Origin: Seohaeicola saemankumensis
Lineage (GTDB): Bacteria > Pseudomonadota > Alphaproteobacteria > Rhodobacterales > Rhodobacteraceae
Assembly: GCF_021021435.1 (NCBI RefSeq)
Contig: NZ_JAINWI010000010.1
Coordinates: forward strand, 186,001 to 250,000
Direction of reading: 5' to 3'
Length of the DNA: 64,000 bases
Shown: positions 57,326-62,079 of the stretch, in pieces
Position numbering within the stretch: position 1 is the first letter of the stretch
How the letters are laid out: the number at the start of each line of letters is the position of its first letter
The notes under the pieces: model-generated
The model's input: the letters and a program-made list of their open reading frames with translations, nothing else
What the model was told of the DNA's origin: nothing
Database searches by the model: none
Translations under genes and position numbers: made by a program

Positions 57326-58231
57326 TCACCCCAAAGTATCGATAAACTCCCGCCATTCCCCCTTGCTCATGCCGGATGTTTCCTGCGTGACCTCTTCACC
57401 TTTCAGCATCCGGCGCACGCAATCAAGGGCTGTTGCGCTCATCGTGGCGCCACCCATGCGATAATCCTCGAAGGCCTTGTAGGCGAAGGGCACCCAGTCG
57501 GCCACGACGTTGCAGATCGCATCGGCATAGACGCGGATCTCGTATTGCGCGTGGGCGTCCGCCCGCAGCCGCAGGAAGTGCAGCAGGTTGTGCAGATCGA
57601 CTTTCCAATACCACTGGGTGTAGATATTCGCGGGCAGGTTCATCCGCGCCAGCTCGCGCGCAAGTCCCGCCTGCCCTTCTTGCGAAATCATCTGTTCGTA
57701 ATGGTCATAGGCGCGGTTCGCGTCGGTCTTGAGGATTTCGAGAACGCGCGCCGCCTCCTCGCCCTCCAAAGTTGCGCCACGGCCCTGATTGTTGACCACC
57801 GATTGCGCCGCCAGATGTTCGGGCGCAGGGATGTAGAACTCGCGGTCAAGAATAGAATAGCGGGCGGAGTATTCATTCACATTCGCCGTCCGGTGCCTGA
57901 TCCACTGCCGCGCCACGAAAACCGGCAGTTTGACATGCAGCTTGACCTCGCACATCTCGAACGGGGTCGAATGCCAGTGCCGCATCAGATAGCGGATCAG
58001 GCCTTCGTCATTCTGCACTGATTTGGTGCCACGGCCATAGCTCACACGCGCCGCCTGACAGATCGCCGCATCGTCGCCCATATAGTCGATGACACGGACA
58101 AAGCCGTGATCCAGCACGGGGATCGCGGTATAGAGATGCTGTTCCATTCCGGGCGACACGGCGCGGCGTGTGGGCGTTGTCTGCCCGCGCTGTGCATCAA
58201 CCTCGGCCTGCTGGTCTGGTGTAAGAGGCAT
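57326..58231 (-). CDS. thyX: Flavin-dependent thymidylate synthase
   Basis: ThyX makes dTMP from dUMP with methylene-THF and FAD. The 301-residue protein carries the signature [15 protein letters not shown] and QWIRHRT, with the family C-terminal region. I start at ATG 58231 (AAGGA ten bases upstream), since the two upstream ATGs at 58258 and 58306 lack a ribosome site. It stands alone on the minus strand. Confidence 0.93.
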
Positions 58232-58434
58232 ATCGGTGGTTCCTTCATCTGCGGGCATGAGTCGTCCGACACTATATCTTGAGTGGGCTATGAGGGAAAA
58301 CCACAATAGTGGGGTGGCTGTCCGGGCAACAACTCTTGGAAAATGGTCTGCTTATGAGTGTGGCTGATTGACTTTCACAGCCACAGGCGGGACCGTGCGG
58401 CAATATCTTGAGACAAAGCTTAGGGGCCATTTCC

Positions 58435-59442
58435 ATGACCAGATTTCCCGCCTTTCTTCTTGCTGCCTGCATTCTGGCGGCTTGTAGTGGAAATCCCTTT
58501 GCGCCAACTGTTGTGGTCTCTCCACCTCTTGACGAGACGGAACAACCGGCCACGCCTGACCCCGGTGCTGCAAGTGCGCTTCCTAGCTCCCTGGCACAGA
58601 ATCTATCGACCGTGAGCTATAACGCGGATACGAATACGCTGGTAATGCGGCTGACATCGCTCAACGCCGGAACGCTGGATGCAACTTATCAGCGGACACC
58701 TGTTCTGGACCGTCCGGGATATCATGCCTACACGCTTCAGGATGACCCGCTGGACAGACATGTTACCGCGATGGTGGCCCGCAGCACAGACCCTGGCAGA
58801 TCCGTGCAAGCAGGTATCGCGTCGGATGGCGGACAGTTCAACACCTTCTTCAGCGGTGGCTTTTACGAACGCAACGAACCCGTTCTGGACCCACCTGTTC
58901 CTTATACATTGCCAACAACAGGTCTTGTGTCCTACGCGGGTGGCTATGTTGCACAGACCAACGTGAATGCGCCGGGAGATCAACTTCTCGTCGTCGACCC
59001 CGCCATCGACCAATCTTTGCGCCCGATCCAAAGCGCGCAGGTCATCGGGACAATTTTCCTGAACGTCGATTTTGCCGAGAACACTGTCAACGGAAGTATA
59101 TTCGACCGAAGCTTCTCGCAATACGGGGCCACATTGCCCGGCGGCGGCAACAATGAATTGCGCAACGTGACACTGCGCGTTGCTGATATCAACAGAACCG
59201 ACAGCACATTCTACGGCGGATTGGTGAATTACGAGAACGTCCCAAACCGTGATATCGGCGACTATGGTGGCATTTTCGGTGGAACAGATGCATCCGCTGT
59301 TGGCGGCGTCGTTGCCCTAACGGAATTCGACGGGCCAAGCGATGATCTGGGCTTCACGGCTGAACGCGAGATTGGCGTGTTCGTGCTGAGCCGTTGCGGG
59401 GTTTCCGGCTCGGACCCTGTTCTTTGCGATGATGTCAACTGA
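58435..59442 (+). CDS. TbpB-like surface lipoprotein, likely Slam client
   Basis: A 335-residue lipoprotein. The lipobox is ILAACSGN (Cys17), followed by a Pro/Thr-rich linker (residues 22-45), then a beta-rich body. The C-terminal GGIFGGTDASAVGGVVALTE matches the end of the TbpB/HpbB-type handle-barrel domain (G-x-F-G-x-x-A-x-x-x-G-G). The next gene, a Slam homologue, overlaps by 14 bases, so it probably moves this lipoprotein to the cell surface. The ligand is unknown; no TonB receptor is adjacent. Confidence 0.82.
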   Translation: MTRFPAFLLAACILAACSGNPFAPTVVVSPPLDETEQPATPDPGAASALPSSLAQNLSTVSYNADTNTLVMRLTSLNAGTLDATYQRTPVLDRPGYHAYTLQDDPLDRHVTAMVARSTDPGRSVQAGIASDGGQFNTFFSGGFYERNEPVLDPPVPYTLPTTGLVSYAGGYVAQTNVNAPGDQLLVVDPAIDQSLRPIQSAQVIGTIFLNVDFAENTVNGSIFDRSFSQYGATLPGGGNNELRNVTLRVADINRTDSTFYGGLVNYENVPNRDIGDYGGIFGGTDASAVGGVVALTEFDGPSDDLGFTAEREIGVFVLSRCGVSGSDPVLCDDVN

Positions 59443-60865
59443 TCGCCCTTGGGCCTGCCTGTTCTGCATTCTTCTGTGCGTCCTGATTTTCAGCAGTCCG
59501 GCAAAGAGTCAGCCAAGCGACGCGCCATTGCAGGCCGAAGTGAACCTGACCCTCGATCAGGCGCGCATGATAGGCGTTCAGGCGCTGGAAAGCGGCGACG
59601 CCGTGCTTGCGCTGGAAATCGGCAAAGGTCTGTTGCAAGCGGAACCTGAAAGCTTTTTCGCGCATATGCTGCTTGCTCAGGCGTATCGCCAAACATCCGA
59701 CACGACGCAAGCCCGCCGCGCGGCGGCTGCAGCTTACCGCCATGCTGATACATCGGACGAGAAATTCGCGGCGTCCCAGCTTGCTGCCCGCTTGTCGGTT
59801 GAAGAAGGACGGTTTACCCAAGCACAATTCTGGCTGCGACGCTCTATCCTCCATACGCCCGGTCCAGAGTTTCAGCCTCAGGTTGAGGATGATTTTCGCA
59901 GGGTGCGCGCGATGGACCCGCTGCGTTTCCGTTTCAACTTCTCGATCGCGCCTTCCTCTAATGTGAACAATGGAAGCGACAGCGCCTATGCGTTGATTGA
60001 CGGCGTGCCTGTTATCGGCCTGCTTGATGGCCTGTCGCAAGCGCTGTCCGGTGTGACAGCGTCTGCAGACCTGTCGCTGAGCTATCGGCTGTTACAATCA
60101 CAGACAAGCGAGACATCTGCCTTGGCGAGAGCCTTCACATCACGCGTCTGGCTTGACAGTAGCTCCTTCGAGTTGGCCAATAGCGGTCGTGGTCCGAATG
60201 TCTCGAATTCCGATTTCAGCTTTGCATTGGTAGAGGCGGGATTGCGCCATGCGGTTCGCCTTGACGGTCCCACAGGTCCAGGCTTTTTGTCCGGCGAGAT
60301 CGCGGCCGGCAAGACCTGGTACGGGGAGGACCCCTATCAGAACTTTACCCGCATCGGGCTTTCGCACAGTGTGCTCATCAGCGACGTCATGCGATTGACC
60401 TATGGTGGTGGCCTCGAAAAGCGCAGGTTCGACAGGGGCAACAACCTGCCTGTAGAGACCGCATCCTTGCAAGCCGCACTGGCCCACAGCTTTGCAAATG
60501 ACGACCGCCTAACCTTTGGCCTGTCATGGCGTGAAAGCGAAAGCGGTAGTCGCAATGCCAATTCCGTCAGCAAGAGCGCATATGCCAGATACGAGATGGC
60601 GGAGCCTGTCGGACCTGCACGCCTCTCCCTTACCTTGGGGACTCAACAGACCACTTACCCGGACTATGCGGTTGGTTTCATATTCGTTCCCGGTGGGCGA
60701 CAGGACGAAACTGTGTTCGGAAGTATCGGAATGGTGTTCGACGGGGTGGACTATGCAGGATTTGCCCCATCTCTCACCTTGCGGGCTCAGAAGACACGGT
60801 CCAATGTCAGCCGTTTTGAAGCCAGCGAGGTCTCAGTATCGTTTGGCATTCAGTCACGGTTCTGA
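59429..60865 (+). CDS. Surface lipoprotein assembly modifier (Slam, DUF560)
   Basis: A 478-residue outer-membrane protein. A signal peptide (residues 1-27, ending PAKS) is followed by a helical TPR-like domain (residues 35-155, repeated ALESGDAVLALEIGKGLLQA-type helices) and a long C-terminal beta-barrel domain ending in phenylalanine (SFGIQSRF), the normal OMP ending. Layout and length fit Slam, which helps surface lipoproteins across the outer membrane. The start overlaps the lipoprotein gene by 14 bases. Confidence 0.85.
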   Translation: MMSTDRPWACLFCILLCVLIFSSPAKSQPSDAPLQAEVNLTLDQARMIGVQALESGDAVLALEIGKGLLQAEPESFFAHMLLAQAYRQTSDTTQARRAAAAAYRHADTSDEKFAASQLAARLSVEEGRFTQAQFWLRRSILHTPGPEFQPQVEDDFRRVRAMDPLRFRFNFSIAPSSNVNNGSDSAYALIDGVPVIGLLDGLSQALSGVTASADLSLSYRLLQSQTSETSALARAFTSRVWLDSSSFELANSGRGPNVSNSDFSFALVEAGLRHAVRLDGPTGPGFLSGEIAAGKTWYGEDPYQNFTRIGLSHSVLISDVMRLTYGGGLEKRRFDRGNNLPVETASLQAALAHSFANDDRLTFGLSWRESESGSRNANSVSKSAYARYEMAEPVGPARLSLTLGTQQTTYPDYAVGFIFVPGGRQDETVFGSIGMVFDGVDYAGFAPSLTLRAQKTRSNVSRFEASEVSVSFGIQSRF

Positions 60866-60900: not shown

Positions 60901-61332
60901 ATGATGAACATCCGGTATCTGCACACAATGGTGCGCGTGAAAGACCTTGAAAAGACACAGGCCTTCTTTGAATTGCTGGGGCTGGTCAAGACGCGGCAGT
61001 ATGACAGCGAAGCGGGTCGGTTCAGCCTGATTTTCATGGCACCTCCCGGGCAGGAGGAATGTCCGGTCGAACTGACCCATAACTGGGACGGCGATGACGG
61101 TCTGCCATCGGACAGCCGCCATTTCGGTCATCTGGCCTATGAGGTGGACGATATCCACGCCATGTGCCAGCACCTGATGGACAATGGCGTGACGATCAAC
61201 CGGCCGCCACGCGACGGTCGTATGGCTTTTGTCCGAAGCCCAGACAATGTCTCGGTCGAATTGCTGCAAAAAGGCGAGGCGCTGACACCTGCGGAACCCT
61301 GGCTCAGCATGCCCAATACAGGCCACTGGTAA
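60901..61332 (+). CDS. gloA: Lactoylglutathione lyase (glyoxalase I)
   Basis: This enzyme converts the glutathione hemithioacetal of methylglyoxal to S-lactoylglutathione. Metal ligands at expected places: His8, Glu57, His77 (in HFGHLAYEV) and a C-terminal Glu in VSVELLQKG. Length 143 is normal. It lies 35 bases after Slam and 9 bases before the DUF1194 gene. AAAGGAAC precedes the ATG. Confidence 0.93.
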   Translation: MMNIRYLHTMVRVKDLEKTQAFFELLGLVKTRQYDSEAGRFSLIFMAPPGQEECPVELTHNWDGDDGLPSDSRHFGHLAYEVDDIHAMCQHLMDNGVTINRPPRDGRMAFVRSPDNVSVELLQKGEALTPAEPWLSMPNTGHW

Positions 61333-61341
61333 GGTCAGGCG

Positions 61342-62079
61342 GTGGCGGGCACGTCTGCCCTGCGGGCAATCCTCGCTTGCGCGCTGGTGTTGGGCTGTGC
61401 AAGCGCCGCCGCCGCGCAAGGCCCCTGCCGTCTGGCGTTGGTGCTGGGGATGGATATCTCTTCCTCGGTCGATCCGCTGGAAGATGCTCTGCAGCGTGGC
61501 GGTCTGGCGCAGGCTTTGCGCGCCCCTGATGTGGCCGATGCAATCCTCAGCCAGCCCGACCGCCCCGTAGCACTGGCCATGTTCGAATGGAGCGGGCGGG
61601 TACAGCAGGATATAGTCCTGCCTTGGGTGATGCTGACCGATGGTGCGGCAATCCTTGCCACCGCCGACCGCATCGCCACGAGCAGGCGCAGCTATGCCGA
61701 GTTTTCCACCGCGATCGGCCATGCAGTAGACTATGCCTATGATCTTTTCCGCGAAGGTCCGGTCTGTGATGCGCGGGTGCTCGACCTTTCGGGGGACGGC
61801 GTCAACAATGACGGTCCAAGCGCAGCCGAAGCCTATGCCATGCGCGATTACAGCGACATCACGGTCAACGCGCTGGCCATCGAAGTCGAAGAAACCGGCA
61901 CCGATCACGGGCTGAGCGAGGGCGCGGAAGAAGGTCTTGCGGCTTATTTCAAAGCCGAGGTGATCCACGGCCCCGGCGCTTTTGTCGAAAGGGCGGACGG
62001 GTTCGAGGATTTCGCCCGCGCGATGCGGCGCAAACTCTTGCGCGAATTGCAGATACAGGTCGGGCAGACCCAAGATTGA
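61342..62079 (+). CDS. DUF1194 secreted von Willebrand factor A-like protein
   Basis: A 245-residue protein with a signal peptide (residues 1-25, ending SAAAA) and a VWA-like domain: LVLGMDISSSVDPLEDA with the MIDAS DxSxS motif, VLDLSGDGVNNDG with the second site. DUF1194 covers it. GTG is the start codon. Function unknown; adhesion or metal binding are options. Confidence 0.85.
   Translation: MAGTSALRAILACALVLGCASAAAAQGPCRLALVLGMDISSSVDPLEDALQRGGLAQALRAPDVADAILSQPDRPVALAMFEWSGRVQQDIVLPWVMLTDGAAILATADRIATSRRSYAEFSTAIGHAVDYAYDLFREGPVCDARVLDLSGDGVNNDGPSAAEAYAMRDYSDITVNALAIEVEETGTDHGLSEGAEEGLAAYFKAEVIHGPGAFVERADGFEDFARAMRRKLLRELQIQVGQTQD

Follow-up and report, generated by a model that had tools for sequence, protein, structure and literature searches.

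Many characterised T11SS/Slam systems take host iron, and the experimentally characterised ones all come from an animal-associated cluster (Grossman et al. 2025, PMC12282271). The window, the whole 64,000-nucleotide stretch of DNA analysed here, raises the question of what such a system does in an alphaproteobacterium, where a putative surface lipoprotein (the client) and a Slam-type outer-membrane protein are encoded side by side. The answer reached below is that the two probably form a client-translocator pair for TonB-independent surface display. The placement in the Alphaproteobacteria agrees with 46 named relatives, the titles of which read Rhodobacteraceae, Rhodobacterales or Alphaproteobacteria, or give genera that we take to be Rhodobacterales.

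Both open reading frames of the pair announced by the first-pass annotation were found, including the 14-base overlap on the forward strand (Table 1), which suggests translational coupling of client and Slam. The client opens with MTRFPAFLLAACILAACSGNPF, and the Slam protein, likewise starting at an ATG, ends in Phe. The divergent thyX gene lies upstream of the client, while genes for a gloA-like glyoxalase and a DUF1194 protein follow Slam; each of the three products exceeds its own Pfam cut-off. The gene set of the cluster 3 T11SS locus, thyX - lipoprotein - T11SS - gloA - DUF1194, is thus complete in the window, the assignment being made by gene set. The source genome (4.09 Mb) contains a single SlipAM match, the window Slam. 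An inverted repeat, CCACAATAGTGG (58301-58312), is situated between the thyX and lipoprotein starts and is common to two near relatives; it was ruled out as a family feature because a search upstream of thyX for its CCAC-N4-GTGG form gave 0/114 regions from Slam-bearing genomes and 0/55 from other genomes.

Table 1. Features of the client-Slam locus in window coordinates
Feature	Position	Strand	Basis
Surface-lipoprotein client, 335 aa	58435..59442	+	ORF, lipobox, model; PF01298 19.6 bits, below cut-off 26
Slam / T11SS outer-membrane protein, 478 aa	59429..60865	+	PF04575 36.8 bits, cut-off 22; AlphaFold2 mean pLDDT 91.9
thyX, flavin-dependent thymidylate synthase, likely start codon 58231	57326..58306	-	PF02511 190.8 bits
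gloA-like glyoxalase, backbone neighbour	60901..61332	+	PF00903 59.5 bits
DUF1194 (vWA-like) protein, backbone neighbour	61342..62079	+	PF06707 225.6 bits

The profile search that had been proposed as a check on the second gene places its product in the Slam/DUF560 family: residues 295-464 match PF04575 (SlipAM, the DUF560 of the literature) above the cut-off, and a TPR_19 match (PF14559) reaches 31.7 bits against a cut-off of 25. No match was obtained with phmmer against PDB sequences. The AlphaFold2 model, which is of high confidence (pTM 0.80), has seven TPR-like helices (42-162) and a barrel of 14 long strands, not counting a short strand pair at 187-198, and the N-terminus resembles a signal peptide, so that the signal peptide, TPR-like helices and Phe-ended barrel of the original description were all recovered. 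The Slam layout consists of a TPR domain and a 14-strand DUF560 barrel (Hooda 2017, PMC5449769), and the predicted helices and barrel of the window protein are this layout.

The client carries the lipobox LAAC at 14-17, with Cys17 as the lipid-bearing residue, followed by a linker. Its model (334 of 335 residues, the last one absent; mean pLDDT 84.2, pTM 0.81) predicts an N-terminal beta domain of seven strands within 57-146 and a C-terminal barrel of eight strands at 164-320, the handle fold on which the annotation of a Slam client had been made to depend; Cys321 and Cys331 lie close to the C-terminus. Foldseek matches of the client include fHbp, TbpB, hemophilin and NHBA, with E of about 1e-6 to 1e-4. 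Their TM-scores by query length are low (0.29-0.40), while by target length the shortest listed chains fit best (8bk2_A 0.69, 6cuj_A 0.67), which suggests that the barrel matches and the N-terminal domain differs. The annotation as a TbpB-type client therefore holds for the fold, and the C-terminal segment GGIFGGTDASAVGGVV on which it was based is present, but it fails at the profile thresholds: PF01298 (TbpB_B_D) stays under its curated cut-off (Table 1), and NCBIfam NF041636 (slam_lipo) gives 24.1 against 80. Comparison with PDB sequences by phmmer returned one chance-level match only (E 0.45). A scan of genome contigs with a single protein gave no match.

The same lipoprotein type was followed in relatives. 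A lipobox was recognised by regular expression in 37 of 42 named clients, three of the five others being cut by a contig end. The client structure alignment combines the window client with 29 of these 37, which were picked for having a lipobox, and all 30 share its Cys; the C-terminal Cys pair is common to 16 of the 30, the window client among them. At E <= 0.001, TbpB_B_D (PF01298) detects 3/30 aligned clients and FHBP_C 4/30. A second client subtype has an ETGGFI-like end (L051, L054-L057, L059, L060, L062-L064, L068, L075, L076 and L079); those of its members that were aligned are without the C-terminal Cys pair, and most of these carry an insert ahead of a conserved HRA/HKA-type motif.

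Slam homologues, defined by a match to the window Slam protein at E <= 0.001, are present in 203 of the 394 genomes sampled from the family (source genome counted), in about half of the sampled genera (202/393) and in four of the seven genomes of the genus. For the client, a profile was built from 27 sequences, namely the window client and 26 of 31 relatives (L014 and L023-L026 were left out). A client lies directly upstream of Slam at all 31 first-returned loci, 26 of which had built the profile, at 42 of 45 named loci (46 less L074, which has no Slam-profile match) and at 107 of 120 further loci among the matches listed. The last figure was 98/120 under a strict distance rule, which was widened because the ORFs there run from stop to stop. 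Flanks were covered for the 31 first loci, for the 120 further listed matches and, at greater length, for 20 of the first 31; the four locus sets share genomes. By comparison, none of the 55 thyX regions taken from genomes that lack a Slam match contained a detected client; set against 31/31 and 107/120, this shows that the pairing is not due to chance.

The pairing has exceptions, and these count against the client-translocator reading: 13 of the 120 further regions lack a detected client, as do 28 of the 203 Slam-bearing genomes. Two of the 13 regions (L145, L192) start at a contig end, and in a third (L153) a lipoprotein falls under the profile threshold. Over the 394 genomes, 175 have both proteins, 28 Slam only, 5 the client only and 186 neither. 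One of the five client-only genomes (G293) encodes a client homologue between thyX and gloA (L276:4992-6104), with no Slam match in the region. Another genome (G169) has two Slam homologues (L085, L086); in the 5 kb around the second, neither a client nor gloA, DUF1194 or thyX was detected. A short ORF with a lipobox, about 206 codons long (L159:4175-4792, reverse-complement coordinates), stands beside a Slam without a recognised client and may represent a different client type.

The control genomes were drawn from those without Slam. When 80 of the 191 genomes without Slam, picked mainly for completeness (>= 97%) and including 75 with a TonB receptor, were searched with a more sensitive profile, 10 gave weak and partial Slam-like matches (best E 1.5e-10), all of them elsewhere than at the thyX places. 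Such matches could stem from distant relatives, and 'Slam-negative' is therefore to be read as having no close homologue. Of the 80 genomes, 56 possess thyX; 55 were used, one at a contig edge (G241) being left out.

In place of surface display for its own sake, the client could carry haem or metal to a TonB-dependent receptor whose gene lies elsewhere in the genome, like TbpB, HpuA or hemophilin. Hemophilin and TbpB are among its fold matches, the His of a motif LDRHxTA is kept in many, not all, clients, and TonB receptors were reported in 120 of 185 lipoprotein-bearing Slam clusters (Hooda 2017, PMC5449769). The source genome itself has one TonB-receptor Plug match, on a different contig from the window (C9 as against C2), which bears out the annotated absence of an adjacent receptor; in one genome (G321), Slam and a receptor share a contig at a distance of about 12 kb, as judged by comparing the lists by eye. 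Against this stand the results for the family. The neighbourhood survey called for by the first-pass annotation, made with one query protein, found a receptor homologue in the flanks of 0/120 further loci (about 5 kb) and 0/45 named loci (up to 10 kb). Plug-domain receptors are present in 230 of the 394 genomes and are statistically independent of Slam (both 117, Slam only 86, receptor only 113, neither 78; odds ratio 0.94, p = 0.76), which strengthens the original suggestion that the client does not serve a TonB iron receptor. No Plug match was found in 86 of the 203 Slam-bearing genomes, 67 of which are at least 97% complete, or in 72 of the 175 genomes with both client and Slam (58 at least 97% complete). 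With 86 of 203 Slam-bearing genomes lacking a Plug match, service as a TonB co-receptor was rejected as a general function; feeding such receptors cannot be the general role of the client, and a haem or metal carrier of this kind is an unlikely explanation of the pair.

Another explanation makes the neighbouring genes the partners, with DUF1194 as the true cargo or partner and thyX and gloA as members of a shared one-carbon, glyoxal or nickel metabolism pathway; links of channel neighbours to these three areas were raised in PMC12282271, where the co-occurrence itself is also published. Indeed, among 100 thyX-containing Slam regions, gloA is present in 92 and DUF1194 in 60, the commonest orders being thyX, client, Slam, gloA, DUF1194 (52/100) and the same without DUF1194 (30/100). 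Thirteen Slam regions have full flanks and lack thyX; of these, 10 contain the client, 7 gloA and 5 DUF1194. However, the neighbours persist where the pair is missing. In the 55 thyX regions of Slam-less genomes, which contain no Slam-profile and no client match, gloA occupies the strand opposite thyX in 50 and DUF1194 is kept in 29, and enrichment of gloA and DUF1194 at Slam loci over these controls is not significant (p = 0.77 and 0.40, in tests that take genera as independent). Since the frequencies are alike without the pair, the co-occurrence gives little ground for a functional link. DUF1194, gloA and thyX were rejected as functional partners, since the same neighbours stand at thyX sites without the pair, and an explanation through them is very improbable; they are probably a positional backbone outside the client-Slam mechanism. 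The gap between thyX and gloA in the pair-less regions is at most 400 bases in 44 of the 50 and holds 1-2.5 kb of other sequence in the remaining six. In five pair-less genomes (L248, L250, L252, L253 and L258) the other sequence measures about 1 kb and includes a long ORF frame, and thus other genes may enter the thyX-gloA site.

The Foldseek search of the Slam model against the PDB placed TPR-barrel polysaccharide exporters (BcsC, PelB) and porins on top, with TM-scores (query) below 0.4 and no Slam structure among the 50 matches listed; for this reason the fold search alone cannot decide for Slam. That the barrel protein is such an exporter or another outer-membrane protein, with the lipoprotein an unrelated periplasmic partner, is nevertheless extremely improbable in spite of these top matches, given the PF04575 score above cut-off, 14 predicted strands, as reported for Slam (PMC5449769), the lack of a polysaccharide synthase among four neighbouring genes that were checked, and a client barrel with the Slam-cargo fold.

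The history of the two genes was compared with that of their neighbours at 99 loci with all four genes. Tree distances of client and Slam correlate with a rho of 0.66, which stays at 0.66 after removing thyX and gloA, against 0.05-0.08 for correlations with thyX or gloA (Slam itself 0.08 and 0.06, respectively). The values fit descent of client and Slam as a unit. Slam distances barely follow those of thyX or gloA, as an exchange of the unit between lineages might produce, but the distances of thyX and gloA correlate with each other at only 0.24, both trees being weakly supported. In 51% of cases, moreover, the genome with the nearest Slam is also one of the five closest by thyX.

The preferred reading of the genes as a client-translocator pair starts from computed results, namely the domain layouts, the near-constant pairing, the correlated descent and the independence from TonB receptors and neighbours. 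The pair looks self-contained, in need of neither a TonB iron receptor nor the metabolic genes beside it. By analogy with known Slam systems, we infer that Slam moves the client across the outer membrane. Following the Slam/T11SS literature and general knowledge, the client would be exported by Sec, lipidated at Cys17 with processing by SPII, and carried by Lol transport to the periplasmic side of the outer membrane. Slam, with TPR helices placed in the periplasm and a barrel of 14 strands, would then recognise the eight-strand barrel of the client and move it outside, where the N-terminal beta domain would be displayed on the cell exterior. The displayed domain may bind or stick to something, with no handover to a TonB-dependent receptor. 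A tentative extension, somewhat less probable than not, is that in marine Rhodobacteraceae the pair represents a variable surface-display cassette at the thyX | gloA site, swapped as a unit between lineages by recombination in stable flanks and serving TonB-independent binding or adhesion (e.g. attachment to algae or particles, or a role as a variable surface protein exposed to phage) and not iron uptake.

Slam-related genes have been reported in all Proteobacteria clades, free-living species included (PMC5449769), and nine DUF560 clusters, made up mostly of water and soil organisms, reportedly contain no characterised protein (Grossman 2021, PMC8406197). Like Neisseria Slam1 and Slam2 with TbpB, LbpB, HpuA and fHbp (PMC5449769), the window pair combines a TPR and 14-strand DUF560 barrel protein with a TbpB-like eight-strand-barrel lipoprotein client, often encoded adjacently. 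It differs in that no TonB receptor is nearby, the client stays under the TbpB_B_D cut-off and it comprises one N-terminal beta domain and one barrel. With Hemophilin/HrpC and TXISS-1B (PMC8406197) it shares a single-barrel client and a Slam-type translocator; however, those clients are mostly soluble (SPI), while the window client has a lipobox, and the characterised Hrp locus includes TonB and a haem receptor, in contrast to the receptor-free surroundings in the window.

The closest known system is the cluster 3 T11SS locus, in which thyX, a cargo lipoprotein, a T11SS protein, gloA and DUF1194 were described in that order in Rhodobacteraceae/Roseobacteraceae, in 11 genomes, 10 of which carry a lipidated cargo with an eight-strand barrel (PMC12282271). 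The locus of Ruegeria pomeroyi, a strain with the pair, is depicted in that paper. The locus type is therefore not new; among the matches listed, the open-access literature gave no other work on T11SS cargo in Rhodobacteraceae. The gene set, the SPII eight-strand cargo and the little association with TonB are the same. In that survey, 31 putative cargo ORFs in all were counted for 145 outer-membrane proteins, and TbpBBD in 8 of 145 loci, whereas here a client stands upstream in 107 of 120; cargo directly upstream of these channels is near-universal, which is new relative to the published rarity. Rare linkage, below-threshold similarity or cargo loss were named there as explanations, and the published rarity is best explained by the second of these, the client counts suggesting that cargo was missed through profile thresholds. 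In a further difference, thyX, gloA and DUF1194 are found together here without the pair too, which suggests that position accounts for the published links between the channel and the thymidylate, glyoxalase and DUF1194 genes. With the locus type already in print, the useful part of the present comparison is thus the corrections on cargo frequency, neighbours and TonB, and a near-universal client, often in genomes without a detected TonB receptor, makes these loci a clean test of Slam display beyond iron.
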